From a virus: DNA of 32,420 bases. Location of the stretch: the IMG/VR virus record IMGVR_UViG_3300042898_002394, positions 1-32,420 of that record; one strand, given 5' to 3'. Every line of letters starts with the position of its first letter. The stretch's first letter is position 1. Made by a program: the position numbers and the translations under genes. Shown here in pieces: positions 8,824-32,420 of the stretch. The notes beneath the pieces were generated by a model, which saw only the letters and a list, made by a program, of their open reading frames with translations, was not told where the DNA came from and made no database searches.

Positions 8824-9253
8824 GTGCTCGCGTCATTAATTCCTGGATGCGTGTCTGTGCCTGGACTTCTGCGAGTCCAAGTCGCGAACGCTCGACCGGG
8901 TTGAATGCGATCAATGAAAGCATTGCGGTTATCTGGTGATCAAGGTGGCGCAATGCGACGCGGTCGCGCCATTCTCCGCCTCTGAAAACTATCGCTCGAA
9001 GTTGAACGCGCTCATCCATTGTTTCGCAGAGAATCATTACGTGTTCGATGTCTGTGGTTGGAGAAATCCATGCGCGGCCTGCTTGCCAGATGCGTTCCCA
9101 CATCTTCTGGCCTTCTGATCCAAGTGGTCGAAGTGGTTCTGGTGTTTCTTTCGCCATTGGTAATGCGATCAGGTTTGCTTTCTCTGGAAGTGGTCGCTTT
9201 CCTGGGTTGCCAAGTTTGCGCTTCTGCTCGATTGTCTTTGGGGGATTAGGCAT
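8816..9253 (-). CDS. terS: Terminase small subunit, P27 family
   Basis: This encodes 145 residues. The opening motif KRKLGNPGKRPLPE followed by a short Pro-rich linker is characteristic of P27-type small terminases. The remainder is mainly helical, with MWERIWQAGRAWISPTTD and a helical C terminus. The protein recognises the phage packaging site and recruits the large subunit. It overlaps the methyltransferase gene upstream by eight bases and terL downstream by eight bases, so the three are translationally linked. Confidence 0.88.
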   Translation of the reverse strand: MPNPPKTIEQKRKLGNPGKRPLPEKANLIALPMAKETPEPLRPLGSEGQKMWERIWQAGRAWISPTTDIEHVMILCETMDERVQLRAIVFRGGEWRDRVALRHLDHQITAMLSLIAFNPVERSRLGLAEVQAQTRIQELMTRARG

Positions 9254-20945: not shown

Positions 20946-21809
20946 TCATGCCTTGAGCGCCCTAGCGATTCCTTCTTCTAGGCTGATCTTCGGTTCATAA
21001 ATCTGCAGCATCTTCGTGGGGTCGCCTACTCTGTATTCGACTCCGCTTGGTTTGCCTGGGTGTTTCTTTATCGGGGCCAGGTATCCCTGCGCCAACATGA
21101 TCATCTCTGCGAGCTGGATGAATGAAGTCGGTCGCCCGGTGCAAAGGTTCAAGGTTTGGATGTCGTTTGTGATCGCTTCGAAGGTCGCTGCGACGACGTC
21201 GTCGATGTGAATAAAGTCGCGCACTTGCTCGCCGGTTCCCCATACTTCGAAGGGTTCCTGTTTTGCCTTGCCGCGTGCTATCAAAGATGGGAATGGGTAA
21301 TCGAGCGCCTGGTCGCTGCCGTAGCCGCTAAATGGGCGCAGGATGTTGACCTTGATTCCTTCTGCCCTGGCGTATCTGGCCAAAGTTTCGCCGGTCAATT
21401 TTGCCCATCCGTAGCTCAAGTCTGGGGTTCGAATGTGGTCGAGATTGATGTCGCCTTCTCGAAGTCGTTGCTGGTAGGCGGCTCTCTGCAAATAGATCGG
21501 GTAGGCCGCCGAGCTGCTGTAATAAACGAGGTGCTTCGGCTTGGTTCTTACGGCCCATTGGAACATGTCGCTGTCGATCGCGAGGTCGCTGGCAACGGCC
21601 AAAGGGTTCCCCTCGATCGTGGCCCTGCCCCCGACGATCGCGGCGAGGTGAATAACGACGTCGTATCTGGTGTCGTCCTTCTTGAAGAAATCCCTGCAAT
21701 CGATGCCGTTTGCGATGTCGATTCCGGTGATGTCATGGCCTTTGCCGTCGAGTGCTCTGTGGAAGGCGCGGCCAACGAAGCCGGCATCTCCTGTTATAAG
21801 AATTTTCAT
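20946..21809 (-). CDS. NAD-dependent sugar epimerase/dehydratase
   Basis: This encodes 287 residues from the ATG at 21807-21809, which overlaps the upstream stop as ATGA. The Rossmann motif GDAGFVG (7-13), HLAAIVGG, a serine cluster SSSAAYP (98-104) and the catalytic YGWAK (Tyr133, Lys137) define an extended short-chain dehydrogenase acting on nucleotide sugars. ILRPFSGYG and VRDFIHIDDV are typical of GDP-mannose/UDP-glucose epimerase-dehydratases. It probably makes or modifies the sugar donor used by the adjacent glycosyltransferases. The exact substrate cannot be told. Confidence 0.85.
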   Translation of the reverse strand: MKILITGDAGFVGRAFHRALDGKGHDITGIDIANGIDCRDFFKKDDTRYDVVIHLAAIVGGRATIEGNPLAVASDLAIDSDMFQWAVRTKPKHLVYYSSSAAYPIYLQRAAYQQRLREGDINLDHIRTPDLSYGWAKLTGETLARYARAEGIKVNILRPFSGYGSDQALDYPFPSLIARGKAKQEPFEVWGTGEQVRDFIHIDDVVAATFEAITNDIQTLNLCTGRPTSFIQLAEMIMLAQGYLAPIKKHPGKPSGVEYRVGDPTKMLQIYEPKISLEEGIARALKA

Positions 21810-22522
21810 ATGAGCCATTCTGCCAGGTATTTGTCGCTTCCTGATTCGGCCTTTGCCATCGTCTGGTCAATGCTGAAAACGAAGCGGTCGTCTGCTTCCA
21901 AAGCCGCCCCTATATGGTGCAAGGTTGCCTTCTTGCCGATCGGAAATGGCCGGCGTCTGCTCTGGCCTTCTGTGGGGGTTTCGTAGCTCTCATCGTGGAT
22001 CAGGCTGCTGTCCTTGATTAAGGGCCAAATGTAGGCCGCTAGCCAGTCCTGGTCTTGCGTGTAGTAATTCCTGGCTGCTTCTGTTTCGTGCAAATCGGCC
22101 GGGATTGCCCTGGTACGAGCTGCGAACATGCCGGCGCTGATCTGGTAATTGTGGCCTGTGGGGTGATCTTTCATAATGTGAAAATCCAGGCCGCTTGCCA
22201 GAAACTCTTCGTGTGCGATCCGTTCCCGGTGCGTCAGCCTGGCGTCTGCGTCGCGGCTGAGAACGACGTCGAAGTCTTGGTCTGCCAAAGCCTGAAATCT
22301 CCAGAGTTTGGCTGTGTGGTCTTCTGGCCCTGGCTGCTCTACGAGCTGCACGTGGGGGAAGAGCTGCAGGGTTTGTTTGATGGATTCTGGAACGCTGGCC
22401 CCGGTGTAGAAGCGCAGGGTGAATCCTTTGAAGTGCCTGGTTGCCAGAATTGCGTTCTTGATCGCGCCGATCGTGTATCGCTCTTCGCTGCCGTATAAAG
22501 AGTACGCGATGAGCTGCTTCAT
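21806..22522 (-). CDS. Glycosyltransferase-like protein
   Basis: This encodes 238 residues with an N-terminal nucleotide-binding fold (MKQLIAYSLYG, KGFTLRFYTG) and the DxD motif in VVLSRDADARLTHRE (Asp91, Asp93), which coordinates metal and the nucleotide sugar. An MKDHPTGHNYQISAGMFAAR segment follows, where acceptor-side residues usually lie. This fits a GT-A enzyme of a GT8/GT32-like type. It overlaps the neighbouring glycosyltransferase and epimerase genes by ATGA, forming one sugar-modification unit. Confidence 0.7.
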   Translation of the reverse strand: MKQLIAYSLYGSEERYTIGAIKNAILATRHFKGFTLRFYTGASVPESIKQTLQLFPHVQLVEQPGPEDHTAKLWRFQALADQDFDVVLSRDADARLTHRERIAHEEFLASGLDFHIMKDHPTGHNYQISAGMFAARTRAIPADLHETEAARNYYTQDQDWLAAYIWPLIKDSSLIHDESYETPTEGQSRRRPFPIGKKATLHHIGAALEADDRFVFSIDQTMAKAESGSDKYLAEWLI

Positions 22523-23196
22523 GGCCTTAGTTTGCGCTTTAGCAATTCGTAGGCTTCGCTCTCGATGTAGTTCTTGTATGCGAGCGCGTCGAATGAATAT
22601 ATTTCGGTCGCGTTGACTTCCTTGTATCCCTCATCCCATTCCGCTTTGCCTGCAATTGGATGCATGTGCTCAACGATAACGTCATCGAGATAAGTCAGCG
22701 CTCCTAAATCCTGGCCTAGTTTCTTCCAGAAGTTATCAAGGTATAAATGCTTCATCTTTGGCGGAACCATGCCATCAAGCGCTTTGACGATGTCGCTGGT
22801 CATCGCGATCATGGTTGGAAGTCGTTCCTTCTGCAGCAAGTCGTTGCCGTAGGCCATCGACGGCCGCCGTTGCATTGCCTGGATGAGAAGTGCATCCCAC
22901 CCGGCTGTGCGTGGGCGGTGGTCATCGCCGAGGAAGGCGAAGTATTTATATTCGCCCTTCTTTGCGATCGCACTGGCTGCCTTGTTTATTGGGTAAGCCA
23001 TGCCCCGGGTTTCGTTCTCGATCGTCATGCACTTGTCTGCGCCTACTTCGTATTCGTAGGCATCGTGCTCTGGATCGTTTGCGTCAATAACGAAGAGAAT
23101 GTCTGAATGTGTGGAAAGGCTATCGTGCTCTGCCAATAGTTCGATTGCGTTGCGTGGGCGTCCTCTGGTTGGTACGAGGATAATCATTTCGTTCAT
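22519..23196 (-). CDS. Glycosyltransferase family 2-like protein
   Basis: This encodes 225 residues starting with MIILVPTRGRPRN at residues 4-16, the common opening of phage GT2-like enzymes. GMAYPINKAA and FAFLGDDHRP (Asp91-Asp92) follow as the metal/donor site, then DALLIQAM. The C-terminal half (DVIVEHMHPIAGKAEWDEGY) is characteristic of the same group. The likely reaction is transfer of a sugar to a phage or host acceptor. The ATG overlaps the upstream stop as ATGA, and a second in-frame ATG three codons in is possible. Confidence 0.8.
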   Translation of the reverse strand: MNEMIILVPTRGRPRNAIELLAEHDSLSTHSDILFVIDANDPEHDAYEYEVGADKCMTIENETRGMAYPINKAASAIAKKGEYKYFAFLGDDHRPRTAGWDALLIQAMQRRPSMAYGNDLLQKERLPTMIAMTSDIVKALDGMVPPKMKHLYLDNFWKKLGQDLGALTYLDDVIVEHMHPIAGKAEWDEGYKEVNATEIYSFDALAYKNYIESEAYELLKRKLRP

Positions 23197-24156: not shown

Positions 24157-24371
24157 TTCTTCCCCCTTCTTGTCGATTGTGTATCGAGCAAGATTGAATA
24201 TATTTCGTCAATGCGTGATTCTAGTCTGTTGACTTGGTCTTTTACCGAGCTGCCGCCGTTTGGCTTTAATTCTGCCAGGTAATGCTTGACGAGCCATCTG
24301 GTCATCGCGATAAAGGCTCCGCCGATCGTAATCAATGAAACGGTAAGCGCTGCGTAATCCTGCGCCGTCAT
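24153..24371 (-). CDS. Small membrane protein, possible second holin
   Basis: This encodes 72 residues with one N-terminal membrane helix (YAALTVSLITIGGAFIAM), then a polar linker and a charged coiled-coil-like segment (VKDQVNRLESRIDEIYSILL) ending in RRGKK. This resembles holin-associated or DUF2746-like phage membrane proteins upstream of endolysins. It overlaps the endolysin gene by GTGA and the upstream gene by ATGA. It may regulate or assist the holin at 23460-23654. Confidence 0.65.
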   Translation of the reverse strand: MTAQDYAALTVSLITIGGAFIAMTRWLVKHYLAELKPNGGSSVKDQVNRLESRIDEIYSILLDTQSTRRGKK

Positions 24372-24622
24372 AATCCGATTGCCAATACCATCATCGTGAC
24401 GGTTCCCGATGCTGTAATCGCCCAGATTCCGTTTGCCTTGTTTTCGATCGTGAGCTTGTCGCCGTTATCCATGCGGTATCCGGTGCTGGTTGTCACGTCG
24501 CTGGACCCTATAAAGCACTGGCCGCTTGCTGAGTGAAGAACAACGGTTTCGGCTTCTGCTGTTGCATCAACGAGCGCGGTTGCTGTGGTTCCTACGGTGA
24601 CTTGCCGGGTGCTGATTCCCAT
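24368..24622 (-). CDS. Small virion-associated-type protein
   Basis: This encodes 84 residues and looks all-beta (STRQVTVGTTATALV, then ETVVLHSASGQCFIGSSDV, and KLTIENKANGIWAITASG). Such proteins recur near tail fibres or as small decoration-like subunits in phages. It has a strong CAGGAGAGAAGA site before the ATG. The position between fibre genes and lysis genes suggests a minor tail or fibre-associated component. The function is inferred only from fold and place. Confidence 0.6.
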   Translation of the reverse strand: MGISTRQVTVGTTATALVDATAEAETVVLHSASGQCFIGSSDVTTSTGYRMDNGDKLTIENKANGIWAITASGTVTMMVLAIGL

Positions 24623-24728
24623 TCTTCTCTCCTGGTTTCTTCTGGATCCCCGATGCTTCTACTTCGTCTACGGCGTCGTCGATCGTCCGGGTTGGTTCCC
24701 TGGTGCAATCGCCTTCTTGGTATCCCAT
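24567..24728 (-). CDS. Small polar protein bridging two genes, uncertain
   Basis: This ORF encodes 53 residues starting MGYQEGDCTRE and becoming basic at the end. It starts with a TAATG overlap to the upstream gene, covers the entire 105-base gap, and overlaps the next gene by 56 bases. Translational coupling favours a real gene. The lack of any recognisable fold and the long overlap argue caution. Confidence 0.4.
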   Translation of the reverse strand: MGYQEGDCTREPTRTIDDAVDEVEASGIQKKPGEKNGNQHPASHRRNHSNRAR

Positions 24729-24952
24729 TAAAGGGCAGCGATCTCGTCTTCTGTCAGGCCAAGAGCTGCAAGTTTGGCCCGGGCTGAGGCTTTGGCTGCT
24801 GCCTTCGCCTGTTCTTCGGCTTCTGCTTCGGCCTTGTGTGCCGCCACTGCTGCTCGGTCGATTTCCATCTGCGCGATCTCTGCATCCGTCAGCTCGATTT
24901 CCAAGACTTCGCCGGTGGTGCAGTTGACTTCGATTCGTGTTGGTTTAGGCAT
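24728..24952 (-). CDS. Tail fibre-associated small protein
   Basis: This encodes 74 residues from the ATG at 24950-24952, served by a GGAG site inside the last codons of the upstream gene. The N-terminal RIEVNCTTGEVLEIELTDAE and the long Ala/Glu/Lys-rich helix ending AKLAALGLTEDEIAAL are typical of small proteins encoded after phage tail fibre genes, which may act as fibre chaperones. The chaperone role is an inference. Confidence 0.6.
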   Translation of the reverse strand: MPKPTRIEVNCTTGEVLEIELTDAEIAQMEIDRAAVAAHKAEAEAEEQAKAAAKASARAKLAALGLTEDEIAAL

Positions 24953-25451
24953 TTGATACTCCATATAGATAGGCGGTTGTATGTTGGGCGAATGAAGCTC
25001 CGCCGTTATGCGTTAGTTTGATTGAATTGATAGCTGCTGTTCCAGACCATGTTCCTGCGCGGAGTGTTTGATATGCAGTTATTGCGCTATTCTCTGTAAC
25101 TGATTCAGTGGCAAAACTTTTGATAGTTGATCCTGAATAACTAGATATATAAATTTGACTATTTGCAAAAGTCGAGGCTGTGTCACCGGATCCTGAAGAA
25201 GTTGCACTTTGATTTCCTGCTCCACCAGAACTTGCAGCACTTGCTCCGTTGCCTTGTATTTGTTTCTGATCATAGGTAGAACCAGTTGCATTAAATTCAA
25301 TCATAACGTCAACAGGGCCGCCTGTAGCAGCGCGACTAGACAAGCTAATAACAAGATCGGTATATGTGCTCGGAATTGATGAAAAGGTTATATTTGCCTG
25401 ACCACCACTTCCGACTATAACGGCTGTTCCTATTTGCGTAAATGTTGGCAT
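24945..25451 (-). CDS. Tail fibre/tip-like protein, AT-rich paralogue 3
   Basis: This encodes 168 residues. VGSGGQANITFSSIPSTYTD opens a beta-rich domain that ends in FAQHTTAYLYGVS. The same beginning (FSSIP-TYTDL) and end (F-LYGI) occur in the two upstream genes, showing a family triplicated in tandem. A Gly/Ser/Ala-rich loop lies at residues 66-92. Given the place after the tail fibre gene, these are probably distal fibre or receptor-binding proteins. The DNA here is markedly richer in A+T than the flanking tail genes. Confidence 0.6.
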   Translation of the reverse strand: MPTFTQIGTAVIVGSGGQANITFSSIPSTYTDLVISLSSRAATGGPVDVMIEFNATGSTYDQKQIQGNGASAASSGGAGNQSATSSGSGDTASTFANSQIYISSYSGSTIKSFATESVTENSAITAYQTLRAGTWSGTAAINSIKLTHNGGASFAQHTTAYLYGVSNA

Positions 25452-25454
25452 ATT

Positions 25455-25943
25455 CTAAGCCGCCTTTATTCCGTATAAAGTGAAGGTAGAGCCAATTGTA
25501 AAAGTAGCACCAGAAGCAGCAATTAAATCCACACTTGTAATTGCTGCAAGTGGTGTCTTTCTATAAAGTCCAGCATTTGCATCTAATCCGCCTGCTGCTG
25601 CGCTAGATCGACTTATGAATGTTTTAAATGTTGTTGTATTAGCGTAATTAAAAATTTGAACTATTGTCGTGCAAATAGTTGTAGTTAAATCTCCAATATA
25701 AGCAAAGGTTTCGCTAGTAAATCTAGCGCTACTTGCAGCCGTACCATTGCCATATAATCGAGTTGAACTGTAATTAGTTGCTGTATCTCCATTAAGCCGA
25801 ATAATTGAATTGACGTAAGTGCTACCAGAAGCATTAAAAACAATCACAAGATCGGTGTATGTTCCTGGTATTGATGAAAACGTAACAGTTGAGGTAGCGC
25901 TACCTAACGTTCTTGATTCTATTTTGTCATAAGTCGCTGGCAT
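25455..25943 (-). CDS. Tail fibre/tip-like protein, AT-rich paralogue 2
   Basis: This encodes 162 residues starting MPATYDKIESRTLG, with TVTFSSIPGTYTDLVIVFNA near the start and FTIGSTFTLYGIKAA at the end, matching the neighbouring paralogues. The middle is Thr/Asn/Ser-rich and divergent, as expected of a host-contact surface. The start follows AGGGGATAAAAA. The line of DNA at 25621-25680 has only 15 G or C of 60, against about 35 of 60 in the adjacent fibre gene at 27121-27180. Confidence 0.6.
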   Translation of the reverse strand: MPATYDKIESRTLGSATSTVTFSSIPGTYTDLVIVFNASGSTYVNSIIRLNGDTATNYSSTRLYGNGTAASSARFTSETFAYIGDLTTTICTTIVQIFNYANTTTFKTFISRSSAAAGGLDANAGLYRKTPLAAITSVDLIAASGATFTIGSTFTLYGIKAA

Positions 25944-25946
25944 TTT

Positions 25947-26531
25947 TTATCCCCTAATTCCATAAAGTGCAAAAGATGAATATTGGGCAAATGAAGCCCC
26001 ACCGAAGGCTGTTATAGTGATGCTAGTTATAGCATTTGTATTTAACCAAAGACCAGAACCTAATCCTATAGCGCCTGAACCTGTCGCATCGTATCCACCT
26101 AAAATTTTTAATGTTTTATTTTTTGATGTAGAAGAATAATCAATTAAATCAACAACATTTGGGGCTATTAAAGATGTTGTATTAGCAGCAACAGAACCAC
26201 CAGTGATACCAGTTAATGTTGCATTGTAAATAGATGAGGCGCTAGTTCCATCTCCAAATGTTAAGTGTCTTGCATAATAATTAGAATTATTTGTATCGCC
26301 GTTAAATGTAAAAGATAAAGATGTTGGTGATCCTGAATTGGAGCGAGCATTTATGCGCAGTTGCAGATGCTTATAGCTTTGCGAAATAGAAGAAAACGCG
26401 ACGGAAGATTGCCCACCTGATCCGACTGTAACAGTCTCAATTGAGTCATAAGAACTTGTTATTAAAGACGGCGCGAACAATCCGTAGGCCGATGCTGAAA
26501 GGCCGCCCCTTGCTCCTAGTATCGGTGACAT
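25947..26531 (-). CDS. Tail fibre/tip-like protein, AT-rich paralogue 1
   Basis: This encodes 194 residues from the ATG at 26529-26531, preferred over a TTG one codon earlier because AAGGGG is correctly spaced. A Gly/Ala-rich N terminus precedes TVGSGGQSSVAFSSISQSYK, a beta-rich body, and a C terminus GGASFAQYSSFALYGIRG shared with the downstream paralogues. This arrangement is common in phage fibre-tip or receptor-binding proteins. It follows the repeat-containing fibre gene. Confidence 0.6.
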   Translation of the reverse strand: MSPILGARGGLSASAYGLFAPSLITSSYDSIETVTVGSGGQSSVAFSSISQSYKHLQLRINARSNSGSPTSLSFTFNGDTNNSNYYARHLTFGDGTSASSIYNATLTGITGGSVAANTTSLIAPNVVDLIDYSSTSKNKTLKILGGYDATGSGAIGLGSGLWLNTNAITSITITAFGGASFAQYSSFALYGIRG

Positions 26532-26540
26532 CAATTCCCC

Positions 26541-27545
26541 TTATGCAAATTTCGTCTGGCTTGCGAATACGGTGTAGGTGGGCGTCGCCGCAGTCTTGAC
26601 GACCGTATAAACGTAGGCGTCAATGCTTGAGGCGTTGCCGGCGGCGAATGCTGTTCCACCCTGGTACTTCGGTGTTACGGCTGATCCGTCGATCTGCACC
26701 GCGCTATTGTAGTAGGCGGTGCTGCCCTGTGTAACGAGGTGCGTGACTGTGATCGCATCGCCTACGGCCAGAATCGAATTGAGTGTGGTTCCTGAATTGC
26801 CTCGAATGTTCAGCGTCCAGTTTGCGCTGGCATTGCTGGTAAAGAAGAGGACGCCCTGGGTTATGGCGTCGTATGCGATCGTGCCTGTGGCTGCCGTAGC
26901 TGCGACTGTGGTTCGCTCTTCTGGCCCCACGAGAACAGGGCCGGTAATTGTGCCGCCGTTGATCGCCGGGCTTGTCAGGGTCTTGTTTGTCAGGGTGTCT
27001 GTGGTTGCTCTTCCTACGATCGTGTCGGTCGAAGTTGGAAGGGTCAAAGTTCCGGTGTTTGTAATCGTGGAAATGACCGGCGCTGTCAGCGTCTTATTGG
27101 TCAGCGTATCTGTCGTTGCGCGTCCTACGAGCGTGTCGGTCGAAGTTGGAAGGGTCAAAGTGCCGGTGTTTGCGATCGTGGAAATGACCGGGGCTGTGAG
27201 CGTCTTGTTGGTCAAAGTCTGGCTGCCGGTCAAAGTGGCAACAGTGGAATCAATGGCAACGGTTGGAATTGGCCCGGTTGCGCTCGAGATGCTGATTCCT
27301 GTTCCTGCTGTTAGAGCTGTGATATCGCCGGTTGCTCCAACCCAGGCGGATCCGTCATAAACTTCGAGGCTGTTTGTGTCCTGGAGATATGAAACCATGC
27401 CCTCTGCCAATACTCCGCTTAGGGCTGTGGTTCGAGCTGCTGAAGATGCAAATACCATCACCGTCTGCTGCATCAGAAAAGTGTTGACTTGCGCTGCCGT
27501 CAAAACGTCGCCTGTTGCGAATAGTTTGTATCCTGCTCCTGCCAT
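26541..27545 (-). CDS. Tail fibre protein with internal repeats
   Basis: This encodes 334 residues. After an N-terminal attachment segment (FATGDVLTAAQVNTFLMQQT) come repeats built on TLTNKTLTAPVIS and TGTLTLPTST separated by D-T-GRATTD. Two full copies are 37 residues apart and a third begins LTNKTLTSPAI. TLTNKTL repeats are a hallmark of trimeric phage tail fibres. The C-terminal 130 residues form a beta-rich distal domain with GTAFAAGNASSIDAYVYTVV. The ATG has an ACAAGGAGAAATC site. Confidence 0.82.
   Translation of the reverse strand: MAGAGYKLFATGDVLTAAQVNTFLMQQTVMVFASSAARTTALSGVLAEGMVSYLQDTNSLEVYDGSAWVGATGDITALTAGTGISISSATGPIPTVAIDSTVATLTGSQTLTNKTLTAPVISTIANTGTLTLPTSTDTLVGRATTDTLTNKTLTAPVISTITNTGTLTLPTSTDTIVGRATTDTLTNKTLTSPAINGGTITGPVLVGPEERTTVAATAATGTIAYDAITQGVLFFTSNASANWTLNIRGNSGTTLNSILAVGDAITVTHLVTQGSTAYYNSAVQIDGSAVTPKYQGGTAFAAGNASSIDAYVYTVVKTAATPTYTVFASQTKFA
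26960..27230 (-). repeat. Tandem 111-bp repeats inside the tail fibre gene
   Basis: The segment containing gtgtcggtcgaagttgg starts at 27022 and again at 27133, a period of 111 bp or 37 codons. A 29-base stretch is identical between the two copies, and flanking partial copies extend the array. Such repeats can expand or contract and alter fibre length. Confidence 0.8.
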
Positions 27546-27557
27546 GATTTCTCCTTG

Positions 27558-28814
27558 TTAGTAACTGAGAACGCCTGCGACGCCCAGAATTCCTTGCGAT
27601 TCACTGTCGAGAATAAACGCCTGGATGATCGGTTCGCTCGTCAGTATCTTAGTGGTGAATGTTGTCCTTGTTATGTCGTGTTGCAGTCCTTGTACGAATA
27701 ATTCGCTGGTAATCGATGTCGATCCTGGCATCGCCTTTGTAACGTTGACCAGGTCGAATATCTCCAGGTCAATGCCGGCGATGTTTCTTGCTACTTGCCC
27801 ATCGTCGACAAGGTTGAGCGTCATCGAATCAATGCGAAGGGTTGCGTCTTTGCGTGATTGCAAGATCATCGTTGCCTGGTTTAGCGATTCTGTATCTGAC
27901 TGCACCAGGATGCCGGTTCTGGCTCCTGAATGGATGAAGTAGTTATCGATCGATGTCTGGTCGCTTACGATCTGGTTTGTTCCATTTAATCTTTGAACCG
28001 AGACGTTATTTACGATCAGGGTGTCGTCAAAGGCTAGGTCAATCTGGGCGTATCCAATTCCTGTGCCGTCGTCGCTGAAAACTGTCGGTGTCGAGTCTGC
28101 GTACTGGCTGACTGTGGTTCTGGAGTAGAAGGTTGCATTTCCTTCTGCGTCCAAGAAGAAGCCACCGAATTCGCTATTTTCTACCGTCTGAATCGCTTCG
28201 AGGACGGTTCGATCTGCTGTTCCTGGATCTGCCTGCATCGTGCTGTCGCCGGCGTTGATATCTCTTTGCGATAATGGCCAATCGACAACATCTAGAAGTT
28301 TGTTGATTCGCGTTCCGCTTAGTTGCCCTGCTCCGGTATCTGGCACTGTGCTAATCGCTGCGTTATTGAGAAGGCGGAAGCCGTCCACGCAATTGAGGAT
28401 CACTCTGGAAACTTCATCGGCTCCAAGCGCGAAGGTGGTGTCGTAGCTGGTGATAAAGCCTGAGAATAAATAATAACGAACGCCTTCGTAATCTGCCCAG
28501 ATTCGAATCTTGCGCAAGGGTACGAGCTTGCCGTAGTAGGGGCCTGCTGTATTGGCCGGGTTCCAGTCGCCGGTTTCGTCCTTAATCTCAACGACGGCCG
28601 TTCCTGCTTCGAATTTGTTCAGGATGCGGTTGCGTCCTCTTCGAATGGATGAGCGCAGAATGATGTCTGAAATGTCGACCGAGTCGTCTGCGTCTGCGAG
28701 CTGCCCTGTTCCTAGTTTGCCCTTGATGGCGTCGTCCAAAGTGAAGGCTGCTGAAATAAATGCCGGGCCGTTCACGAAGTCGATCGATGCTCCGAGCTGT
28801 GGAATGCCTGCCAT
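27558..28814 (-). CDS. Minor tail protein, baseplate/hub-type
   Basis: This encodes 418 residues directly after the tape measure gene (TAATG overlap), the place of distal tail and hub proteins. The sequence has SSIRRGRNRILNKFEAGTAV and the pattern DETGDWNPANTAGPYYGKL-PLRKIRIW near residues 50-110, which I associate with phage minor tail proteins of this type. LNCVDGFRLLN and a mainly beta C-terminal half follow. No separate distal-tail (Dit) gene is seen, so this protein may combine Dit and hub functions. The assignment is by position and sequence character. Confidence 0.72.
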   Translation of the reverse strand: MAGIPQLGASIDFVNGPAFISAAFTLDDAIKGKLGTGQLADADDSVDISDIILRSSIRRGRNRILNKFEAGTAVVEIKDETGDWNPANTAGPYYGKLVPLRKIRIWADYEGVRYYLFSGFITSYDTTFALGADEVSRVILNCVDGFRLLNNAAISTVPDTGAGQLSGTRINKLLDVVDWPLSQRDINAGDSTMQADPGTADRTVLEAIQTVENSEFGGFFLDAEGNATFYSRTTVSQYADSTPTVFSDDGTGIGYAQIDLAFDDTLIVNNVSVQRLNGTNQIVSDQTSIDNYFIHSGARTGILVQSDTESLNQATMILQSRKDATLRIDSMTLNLVDDGQVARNIAGIDLEIFDLVNVTKAMPGSTSITSELFVQGLQHDITRTTFTTKILTSEPIIQAFILDSESQGILGVAGVLSY

Positions 28815-32152: not shown

Positions 32153-32420
32153 TTAGGATGTTGCTTTGGTAATTGCGCCGGAGATCGGCCAAGTCACACT
32201 TGCAGTTGCTAATTCACCGACGGATCCATTTAGAGGAGTCCATTCTGAAACAAGCGCTGAAAATGTGTATTGCGGATTTACTGCTGTTGTTGTTCCTGCT
32301 ACTGGCTTTGCTACTACGCTGACTGCTGTTCCAAGCAACGGATAGATTGTTTGCTCGACTGCTGATGTTGCGTAGTCCTGGTGAAATTCGAACGTTACAG
32401 AATTGTCTGCAAGTCCGGCC
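32153..32420 (-). CDS. Tail tube protein paralogue 2, C-terminal part (cut by window edge)
   Basis: This is the distal part of the tail gene whose start is at 261-263. Joining the ends through the 120-base repeat gives one uninterrupted 135-codon frame, ending with GELATASVTWPISGAITKAT and TAA (32155-32153). The C-terminal block is nearly identical to that of the paralogue at 263-673, supporting duplication. The central region (VAGTTTAVNPQYTFSALVSE) is where the two differ most. Confidence 0.75.
   Translation of the reverse strand, partial: AGLADNSVTFEFHQDYATSAVEQTIYPLLGTAVSVVAKPVAGTTTAVNPQYTFSALVSEWTPLNGSVGELATASVTWPISGAITKATS
32301..32420. repeat. Terminal direct repeat, right copy
   Basis: This is identical to bases 4-123. 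With a period of 32,297 bp it closes the sequence into a circle and joins the two parts of the split tail tube gene in frame. Confidence 0.9.

Follow-up and report, generated by a model that had tools for sequence, protein, structure and literature searches.

Variable host-recognition genes, including genes for C1q-like and lectin-like domains, have been described in otherwise conserved aquatic phages as metaviromic islands (PMC3909814). These islands are defined by under-recruitment of reads, and the available text of that paper has 0 occurrences each of 'GC content', 'low GC' and 'GC-content'. One 'Ca. Planktophila' strain served as the isolation host of both Planktophila phages LanE43AprE7 (E7) and LanE43AprF5 (F5) (PMC10202952). 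The available text of that report mentions a host-recognition island as 'three proteins encoding DUF2541', and read recruitment there points to a variable region that takes in three neighbouring proteins and a portion of the tail fibre. In mycobacteriophage Mysterious, gp35, gp36 and gp37 form a heterotrimer of beta-sandwich chains, as given in the accessible part of a preprint (PMC13252515).

The locus analysed here consists of three adjacent genes, P3, P2 and P1 (the trio), in an IMG/VR virus record of 32,420 bases, which as a whole is called the window. Its gene set is that of a tailed phage (terminase, portal, head protease, major head protein, tape measure, CHAP lysin), and no tRNA was found in it. 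Positions 1–123 and 32298–32420 form a direct repeat of 123 nt with 99% identity. The record, though classed as linear, therefore probably represents a whole genome of about 32.3 kb that is circular or terminally redundant. Elsewhere in the window, the ORF at 9246–10571 matches both ParB-like nuclease and DNA methyltransferase families. The stretch 20946–23196, downstream of the lysin gene, holds a nucleotide-sugar epimerase-like gene (20946–21818) and two neighbouring ORFs that look like glycosyltransferases. The features of the trio region are as follows.

ANCH, 27558–28814, minus strand: conserved tail gene (phrog_5313), used as the anchor for finding relatives.
FIB, 26541–27545, minus strand: fibre-shaft-like gene upstream of the trio (phrog_5906, phrog_16452).
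Upstream exchange boundary, 26404–26531, minus strand: DNA similarity to close relatives stops within the first P3 codons.
P3, 25947–26531, minus strand: first member, with a class-specific N-terminal extension (ORF, alignment of 36, AlphaFold model).
P3/P2 junction island, 25919–25985, minus strand: junction sequence with short DNA islands 71–85% identical to relatives.
P2, 25455–25943, minus strand: middle member of 162 aa, domain only, lacking an N-terminal anchor (ORF, alignment of 35).
P2/P1 junction island, 25338–25508, minus strand: junction sequence with short DNA islands 72–82% identical to relatives.
P1, 24945–25451, minus strand: last member of 168 aa, domain only, predicted beta-sandwich (ORF, alignment of 31, AlphaFold model).
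Downstream exchange boundary, 24945–25040, minus strand: DNA similarity returns within the final P1 codons or shortly past them.
D1, 24728–24964, minus strand: small gene after the trio, linked to it.

The trio lies on the minus strand between FIB and D1, and its genes are spaced by 3 nt. P3 has 194 aa when read from its ATG and 195 aa when read from a TTG at 26534; D1 has a second in-frame ATG 12 nt downstream of the first. F-S-S-I-x-x-x-Y close to the N-terminus and a terminal LYG(I/V) are common to all three trio proteins, and the P3 and P1 profiles align across the whole domain (hhalign probability 99.9, E 1.6e-31). The three genes are therefore paralogues, as the initial annotation had proposed from their common beginning and end. 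It had also described their middles as diverging; this is correct, but the alignments of 36 P3, 31 P1 and 35 P2 sequences contain conserved interior positions as well. Each junction island encodes the C-terminus of the preceding protein and includes an SD-like motif, AGGGGA before P2 in the P3/P2 island and AAAGGCGG before P1 in the P2/P1 island. Among relatives, an SD-like motif for the next gene lies in the gene end at 139/192 and 139/193 junctions. No RNA structure beyond that of shuffles was found at either trio gene junction.

Window P1–P3 match no PHROG up to E 1 and no Pfam family under E 0.1; two PHROGs were matched, each by 1 of the 36 P3 members. In the PDB, no sequence relative was found beyond a chance-level match (E 0.75). 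The Pfam model of DUF2541 gave no match for the window trio up to E 1, nor for any of the 36 P3 members up to E 0.01. A diversity-generating retroelement at the trio was rejected: reverse transcriptase PF00078 has no match in the window, while control genomes did give matches, and no template-like repeat of the trio was found in the window.

Both E7 and F5 carry the complete trio in the same order as the window, P3-P2-P1, with proteins about 39% identical to the window's. Between the two phages, P2 and P1 are letter-for-letter identical, and P3 is identical where the F5 record covers it. We take the three DUF2541 proteins of PMC10202952 to be this trio. The available text of that report does not discuss the trio as an old conserved set, its structure, its reassortment or its base composition. 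Within the searchable licensed PMC text, it is the only source that links DUF2541 with a phage, and no description of the trio as a set was found there, which does not imply absence in print. A genome scan with ANCH matched 35 stretches, 0 of them confirmed; with P3, 2/109 were confirmed, both in actinobacterial metagenome-assembled contigs, which may be taken as support, short of proof, for actinobacterial hosts. The weak relatives of ANCH come from one phage of Pontimonas, an actinobacterium (phiPsal1, 25.5% identity to a 'putative tail fiber'), and one phage of Microcystis, a cyanobacterium. The window phage would infect freshwater bacteria, probably Actinobacteria, an assignment that these two ANCH relatives keep tentative.

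To describe the family, loci were collected with several queries. The P1 query confirmed 25 loci among 40 candidates, and the ANCH query gave 222 relatives, the best 80 of which were kept. The P3, P1 and P2 profile queries kept the best 80 loci each, of up to 600 candidate stretches, a selection that could miss distant single-copy relatives. Of the 283 loci where at least one member was found, 257 have the complete set in the order P3-P2-P1, and all remaining 26 are close to a sequence end (no more than 700 nt from the start or 1,200 nt from the end). These loci overlap, some being pieces of one contig, and their counts are thus not independent. No complete locus with only one or two members was found among the 283. 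One locus has the assignments P2-P3-P3 (by its layout L183, a 3.3-kb contig) and is counted among the 26 edge cases. The whole trio occurs twice in tandem at 5 loci, and one or more extra members occur at 6 loci. Two complete, diverged trios stand in tandem in one phage at L130:3217–6449, L158:7923–11144 and L177:5322–9535.

In total, 204 distinct trios were obtained, 194 of which were aligned (all domains at least 120 aa) and 191 of which had enough other sequence for composition analysis. The tree of 87 trios groups the sequences by position, with one clade for each, and the best split misplaces 0 (P3), 3 (P1) and 4 (P2) sequences. Because one order is kept across the loci and each position has a separate clade, the triplication predates the spread of the trio over many phage lineages. 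The recent duplication proposed earlier is refuted by these three distinct old clades and by an order kept in many lineages.

D1 is tightly linked to this set. A D1-like gene lies at most 1.5 kb downstream in 175 of the 181 trios with at least 350 nt downstream, and 3 of the 6 trios without it belong to loci with two trios. It was found at 0 of 36 trio-less loci. D1 might be a tip-assembly factor, which is a guess from this linkage alone.

The slot that holds the trio is not always filled by it. At the 53 loci with both ANCH and the downstream marker, the trio is present in 17 and other genes take its place in 36. Of ten other slot occupants tested, 6 match both phrog_2295 and Gly_rich_2 and 1 is an integrase; the matches of the remaining 3 are weaker or absent. 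The integrase is a tyrosine integrase-like gene beside the fibre gene (L078:3184–3981). Genes of similar size (263–265 aa) occupy the slot of L082, L083, L087, L099 and L100. The phrog_2295/Gly_rich_2 fibre family thus fills the slot in trio-less relatives and is fused C-terminally to some P1 and P2, but differs from the window's P1–P3 in having a PHROG match at all.

Where the trio is present, its alleles are much more diverged than its flanks. Between L023 and the window, TMP, ANCH, FIB, D1, D2, D3, CHAP and GT1 are 93–100% identical, whereas P3 is 58, P2 52 and P1 49% identical. Similarly, the flanks of L005 are 96–99% identical to those of the window (D1 91%) and its trio 46–54%. In contrast, P1 of L001 is 71% identical to that of the window although ANCH is only 40% identical, a likeness that, to judge by the sequences, is cross-lineage sharing. 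The upstream similarity block ends at 26404–26479 in 6 of the 7 relatives compared, the exception being the distant phage L001. Downstream, the block edge lies at 25040 (L005), 24992 (L023, L034), 24987 (L012, L013) and 24953 (L028). Inside the exchanged block, DNA similarity is limited to the two short islands at the gene junctions. Whatever the phage, member identity across the 194 aligned trios falls in a narrow band, with medians of 0.46–0.48. Among 18 pairs with P3 more than 85% identical, P2 is less than 60% identical in 12 and P1 in 12. Members have thus clearly been swapped between phages singly as well as in block, and the earlier proposal of horizontal acquisition is supported in so far as it concerns exchange of the block. 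As in metaviromic islands, variable host-recognition genes would here lie within an otherwise conserved phage, and the allelic divergence against conserved flanks would be consistent with such an island. The islands of PMC3909814 are defined by read under-recruitment, while the trio slot is known from genome comparison.

Neighbouring genes vary in other ways. FIB has a 111-nt (37-residue) tandem repeat at 26973–27214. Its motif TLTNKTL is present in 3 copies in the window and in 0 to 3 copies in 23 relatives; therefore, shaft length differs between close phages. D2 (24368–24622) exists among relatives in two sharply different forms, 77–99% and 34–36% identical to the window's. The latter form is found in L012, L013, L029, L033, L046 and L070, and the remaining flank genes of these phages are mostly well conserved.

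The base composition of the trio was then compared with that of its phage. The trio genes have a GC of 0.38–0.42 versus 0.516 for the window, and a GC3 of 0.21–0.24, while the same amino acids with window codon usage would give 0.57–0.58. No other listed window gene has a GC3 below 0.40; the flanking fibre gene has 0.60, and the highest value among the listed genes is 0.68 (ORFs 20946–21818 and 21806–22522). The trio is therefore richer in A+T than the flanking tail genes, as first noted, and the anomaly exceeds chance. Amino acid content was rejected as its cause, as codon choice given the amino acids explains the drop. In the family, trio GC3 is below that of the other genes of its phage in 185 of 191 trios (mean offset -0.11) and rises with that of the genome (slope 0.59, r 0.72). 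No trio is offset further than that of the window, which ranks 1 of 191 and departs from the family trend by z -2.9. In the 12 phages with other-gene GC3 below 0.25 the offset is -0.018; it vanishes only in phages that are AT-rich throughout. The refuting condition set by the initial annotation thus holds by half: relatives with the same three genes do exist, but outside these AT-rich phages their trio, too, usually lies below the genome, on average by 0.11 GC3.

At the ANCH loci, the trio lies below its flanks in 15/15 cases and unrelated slot occupants in 25/26, with L099 as the sole exception. For L099 and L078, an AT-rich fibre gene was left out and the gene next to it was counted as the occupant, in L078 the integrase. 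AT-richness thus tends to belong to the slot, whatever occupies it. Because unrelated occupants are also below their flanks, it is no clock for one event, and its reading as a sign of recent acquisition fails on an offset found in nearly all relatives and in unrelated genes alike.

Gene ends are less AT-rich than gene bodies in 13/13 members of the window clade and in 172 of the 179 other trios; the end segments were picked after viewing the window-clade profile, and the 179 other trios are the cleaner test. This fits resident ends and bodies exchanged with an AT-rich pool, and SD-like motifs in the gene ends can be another reason for the higher GC3 there. A difference between conserved and variable codons was rejected as the cause of the composition, interior conserved codons being as AT-rich as variable ones. 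In L183 (3–1102), a GC-rich actinobacterial MAG contig, the family members have a GC3 of 0.81, equal to their surroundings; low GC is therefore not built into the protein. Most likely, the slot is AT-rich since the genes that fill it move in a pool shared with AT-rich phages. As to composition alone, it is possible, though we lean against it, that selection on the genes themselves (translation, mRNA structure) keeps them AT-rich, rather than exchange with AT-rich phages. The nearly universal offset and the equal AT-richness of conserved interior codons agree with such selection; the less AT-rich ends (which SD-like motifs may also raise), the dependence of trio GC3 on the genome and the GC-rich members in L183 argue against it.

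Structure predictions were made for P1 and P3. The P1 model is all-beta with a mean pLDDT of 91.6, and the P3 model is all-beta with a mean pLDDT of 87.4, residues 5–16 and 18–23 being under 50. Both are predicted to be lectin-like beta-sandwiches. The best PDB fold matches are C-terminal sandwiches of GH32 proteins, with Z 7.6, rmsd 3.6 and 122 aligned residues for P1 and Z 7.3, rmsd 3.7 and 121 aligned residues for P3, both below Z 8; galectin-9 matches with Z 6.4 (P1) and 6.2 (P3). The listed matches, at Z 5.5–7.6, include GH32 C-terminal sandwiches and galectins, lie below the level that marks a relation, and may reflect merely a common arrangement. Foldseek found no PDB match for P1 or P3 at E ≤ 0.001, which does not imply a new fold. 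Against BFVD, the P3 model gave 119 viral matches at E ≤ 0.001, several of which are longer proteins named Fn3, Stf repeat, collagen repeat or tail fibre. The four long P3 proteins tested have N-terminal fibronectin III (Fn3) or minor-tail-protein regions, and the three long P1/P2 proteins tested have a C-terminal Gly_rich_2 domain, the same as in the slot filler of trio-less relatives. The trio domain is therefore also found within longer fibre proteins. Together with the tail-fibre neighbourhood and the predicted fold, these fusions support the initial annotation of the trio as probable receptor-binding modules.

The N-terminal extension is confined to the P3 class. The number of residues ahead of the conserved core Ile has a median of 24 in P3 and of 8 in P2 and P1, and the N-terminal part exceeds 100 residues in 6/194 P3. 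Conversely, C-terminal extensions of more than 100 aa occur in 0/194 P3, 4 P2 and 7 P1. Because of its longer N-terminal part (24 versus 8 residues), P3 seems to be the anchored chain of the trio, and in the model it looks like about 25 flexible N-terminal residues followed by a beta-sandwich domain.

We consider it rather probable that the trio is an exchangeable host-recognition tip, acting as a composite receptor-binding head and perhaps as a heterotrimer. A joint structure is argued because a fixed set has one anchored member. P3, P2 and P1 are old paralogues of a single, predicted lectin-like beta-sandwich domain, and their genes, which lie close together, would be expressed jointly. P3 alone would fix the tip to the fibre or baseplate through its N-terminal anchor, and P2 and P1 would join it through conserved framework strands to give one composite head, plausibly a 1:1:1 heterotrimer. 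Variable loops would bind the host surface glycan, and D1 may help tip assembly. Host range would shift by swap of the whole block or of single members through recombination in the conserved gene ends. The suggestion that the trio may broaden host range is accordingly less likely than a switch of host range, since three fixed members with one anchor would make one composite tip and not three binders. The fuller form of this reading, with an obligate heterotrimeric head, P3 as the sole anchored chain, separately reassorted chains giving combinatorial specificity, and a slot AT-rich through traffic with an AT-rich pool, is plausible but held tentatively.

The Mysterious heterotrimer is the analogy for a 1:1:1 assembly. 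Like the trio proteins, gp35–37 are encoded by three genes side by side, have about 200 aa each and are built around beta-sandwich cores, as the accessible part of the preprint gives them. The same-number genes of Acadian, a phage of the same cluster, code for 209, 202 and 206 aa and overlap by 4 nt; gp35 and gp36 are paralogues (27%, E 3e-10), and the similarity of gp37 to gp36 is not significant. The trio likewise has three adjacent, translationally close paralogous genes, and by analogy might assemble 1:1:1. No homology to the Mysterious-type gp35–37 was found in the 3 of 9 possible pairs compared (hhalign probabilities of 0.9, 0.0 and 0.2 per cent). The N-terminal beta-hairpin arms described for the Mysterious heterotrimer in that part of the preprint have no sign on P2 and P1.

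Chain-chain contacts were approached by coevolution analysis of 194 and 181 trios. Couplings between the proteins are weak, and only P2:7 with P1:166/168 is clearly above shuffles. The P1–D1 couplings rank much like the others, and common descent can therefore account for the signals. Framework classes agree in 7/10 pairs that retain P2 but differ in P1 (base rate 0.38), and in 7/12 pairs that retain P3 but differ in P2 (base rate 0.49). This matching between kept and swapped members is suggestive only. A tight complex with easy reassortment of single members needs conserved interfaces, which are here hypothetical.

Homotrimeric fibre tips are the usual case, and the members reassort separately, as would be expected of three independent receptor-binding proteins, each a homotrimer, that give one virion several receptors. 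However, copy number does not float, no complete locus has one or two members, and P2 and P1 are too short at the N-terminus to hold a separate anchor, which makes this arrangement unlikely. A stacked tip, with a P3 trimer on the shaft followed by P2 and P1 trimers in sequence, would account for one anchored and two unanchored members and for C-terminal extensions on P2 and P1 only, and sequential trimers have a precedent in the bead-chain neck fibre of cyanophage A-1(L), according to the available text of PMC10966104. It is less likely still, as P2 and P1 have no N-terminal docking segment, with 7–8 residues before the conserved Ile as a rule. The trio proteins could also decorate the virion or tail without choosing the host, for example as stabilisers or loose binders of environmental glycans; the fold matches are weak and the function rests on prediction. 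We regard this as improbable in view of the strong allelic divergence of the block against its flanks, the identity of the trio proteins between E7 and F5, phages of a single host strain, and the fusions to an Fn3 shaft and tail-fibre-type domains. Recent acquisition from an AT-rich source with recent duplication, which would broaden host range, draws on a GC3 far under the genome, the most depressed value of 191 trios and the cross-lineage similarity to L001, but is very improbable given the old clades in fixed order, the AT-rich unrelated occupants and the fact that L001, the nearest P1 relative, is less AT-rich (GC3 0.39) and thus not an AT-rich donor.

The general outline of such a host-recognition slot was already known; what is new is a defined, obligate three-paralogue set, proposed as a tip, with separate reassortment. 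In aquatic phages, hypervariable islands for host recognition have mostly been described as groups of hypothetical genes, and here one slot can be resolved into a well-defined unit, a constant trio of paralogous domains, one of them anchored. It can now be tested whether a phage tip may be an asymmetric heterotrimer, whether host range may be set combinatorially, and whether the low GC of such an island would reflect traffic through the slot rather than the date of one transfer. With two cultured phages and their host, these tests on the trio are feasible.
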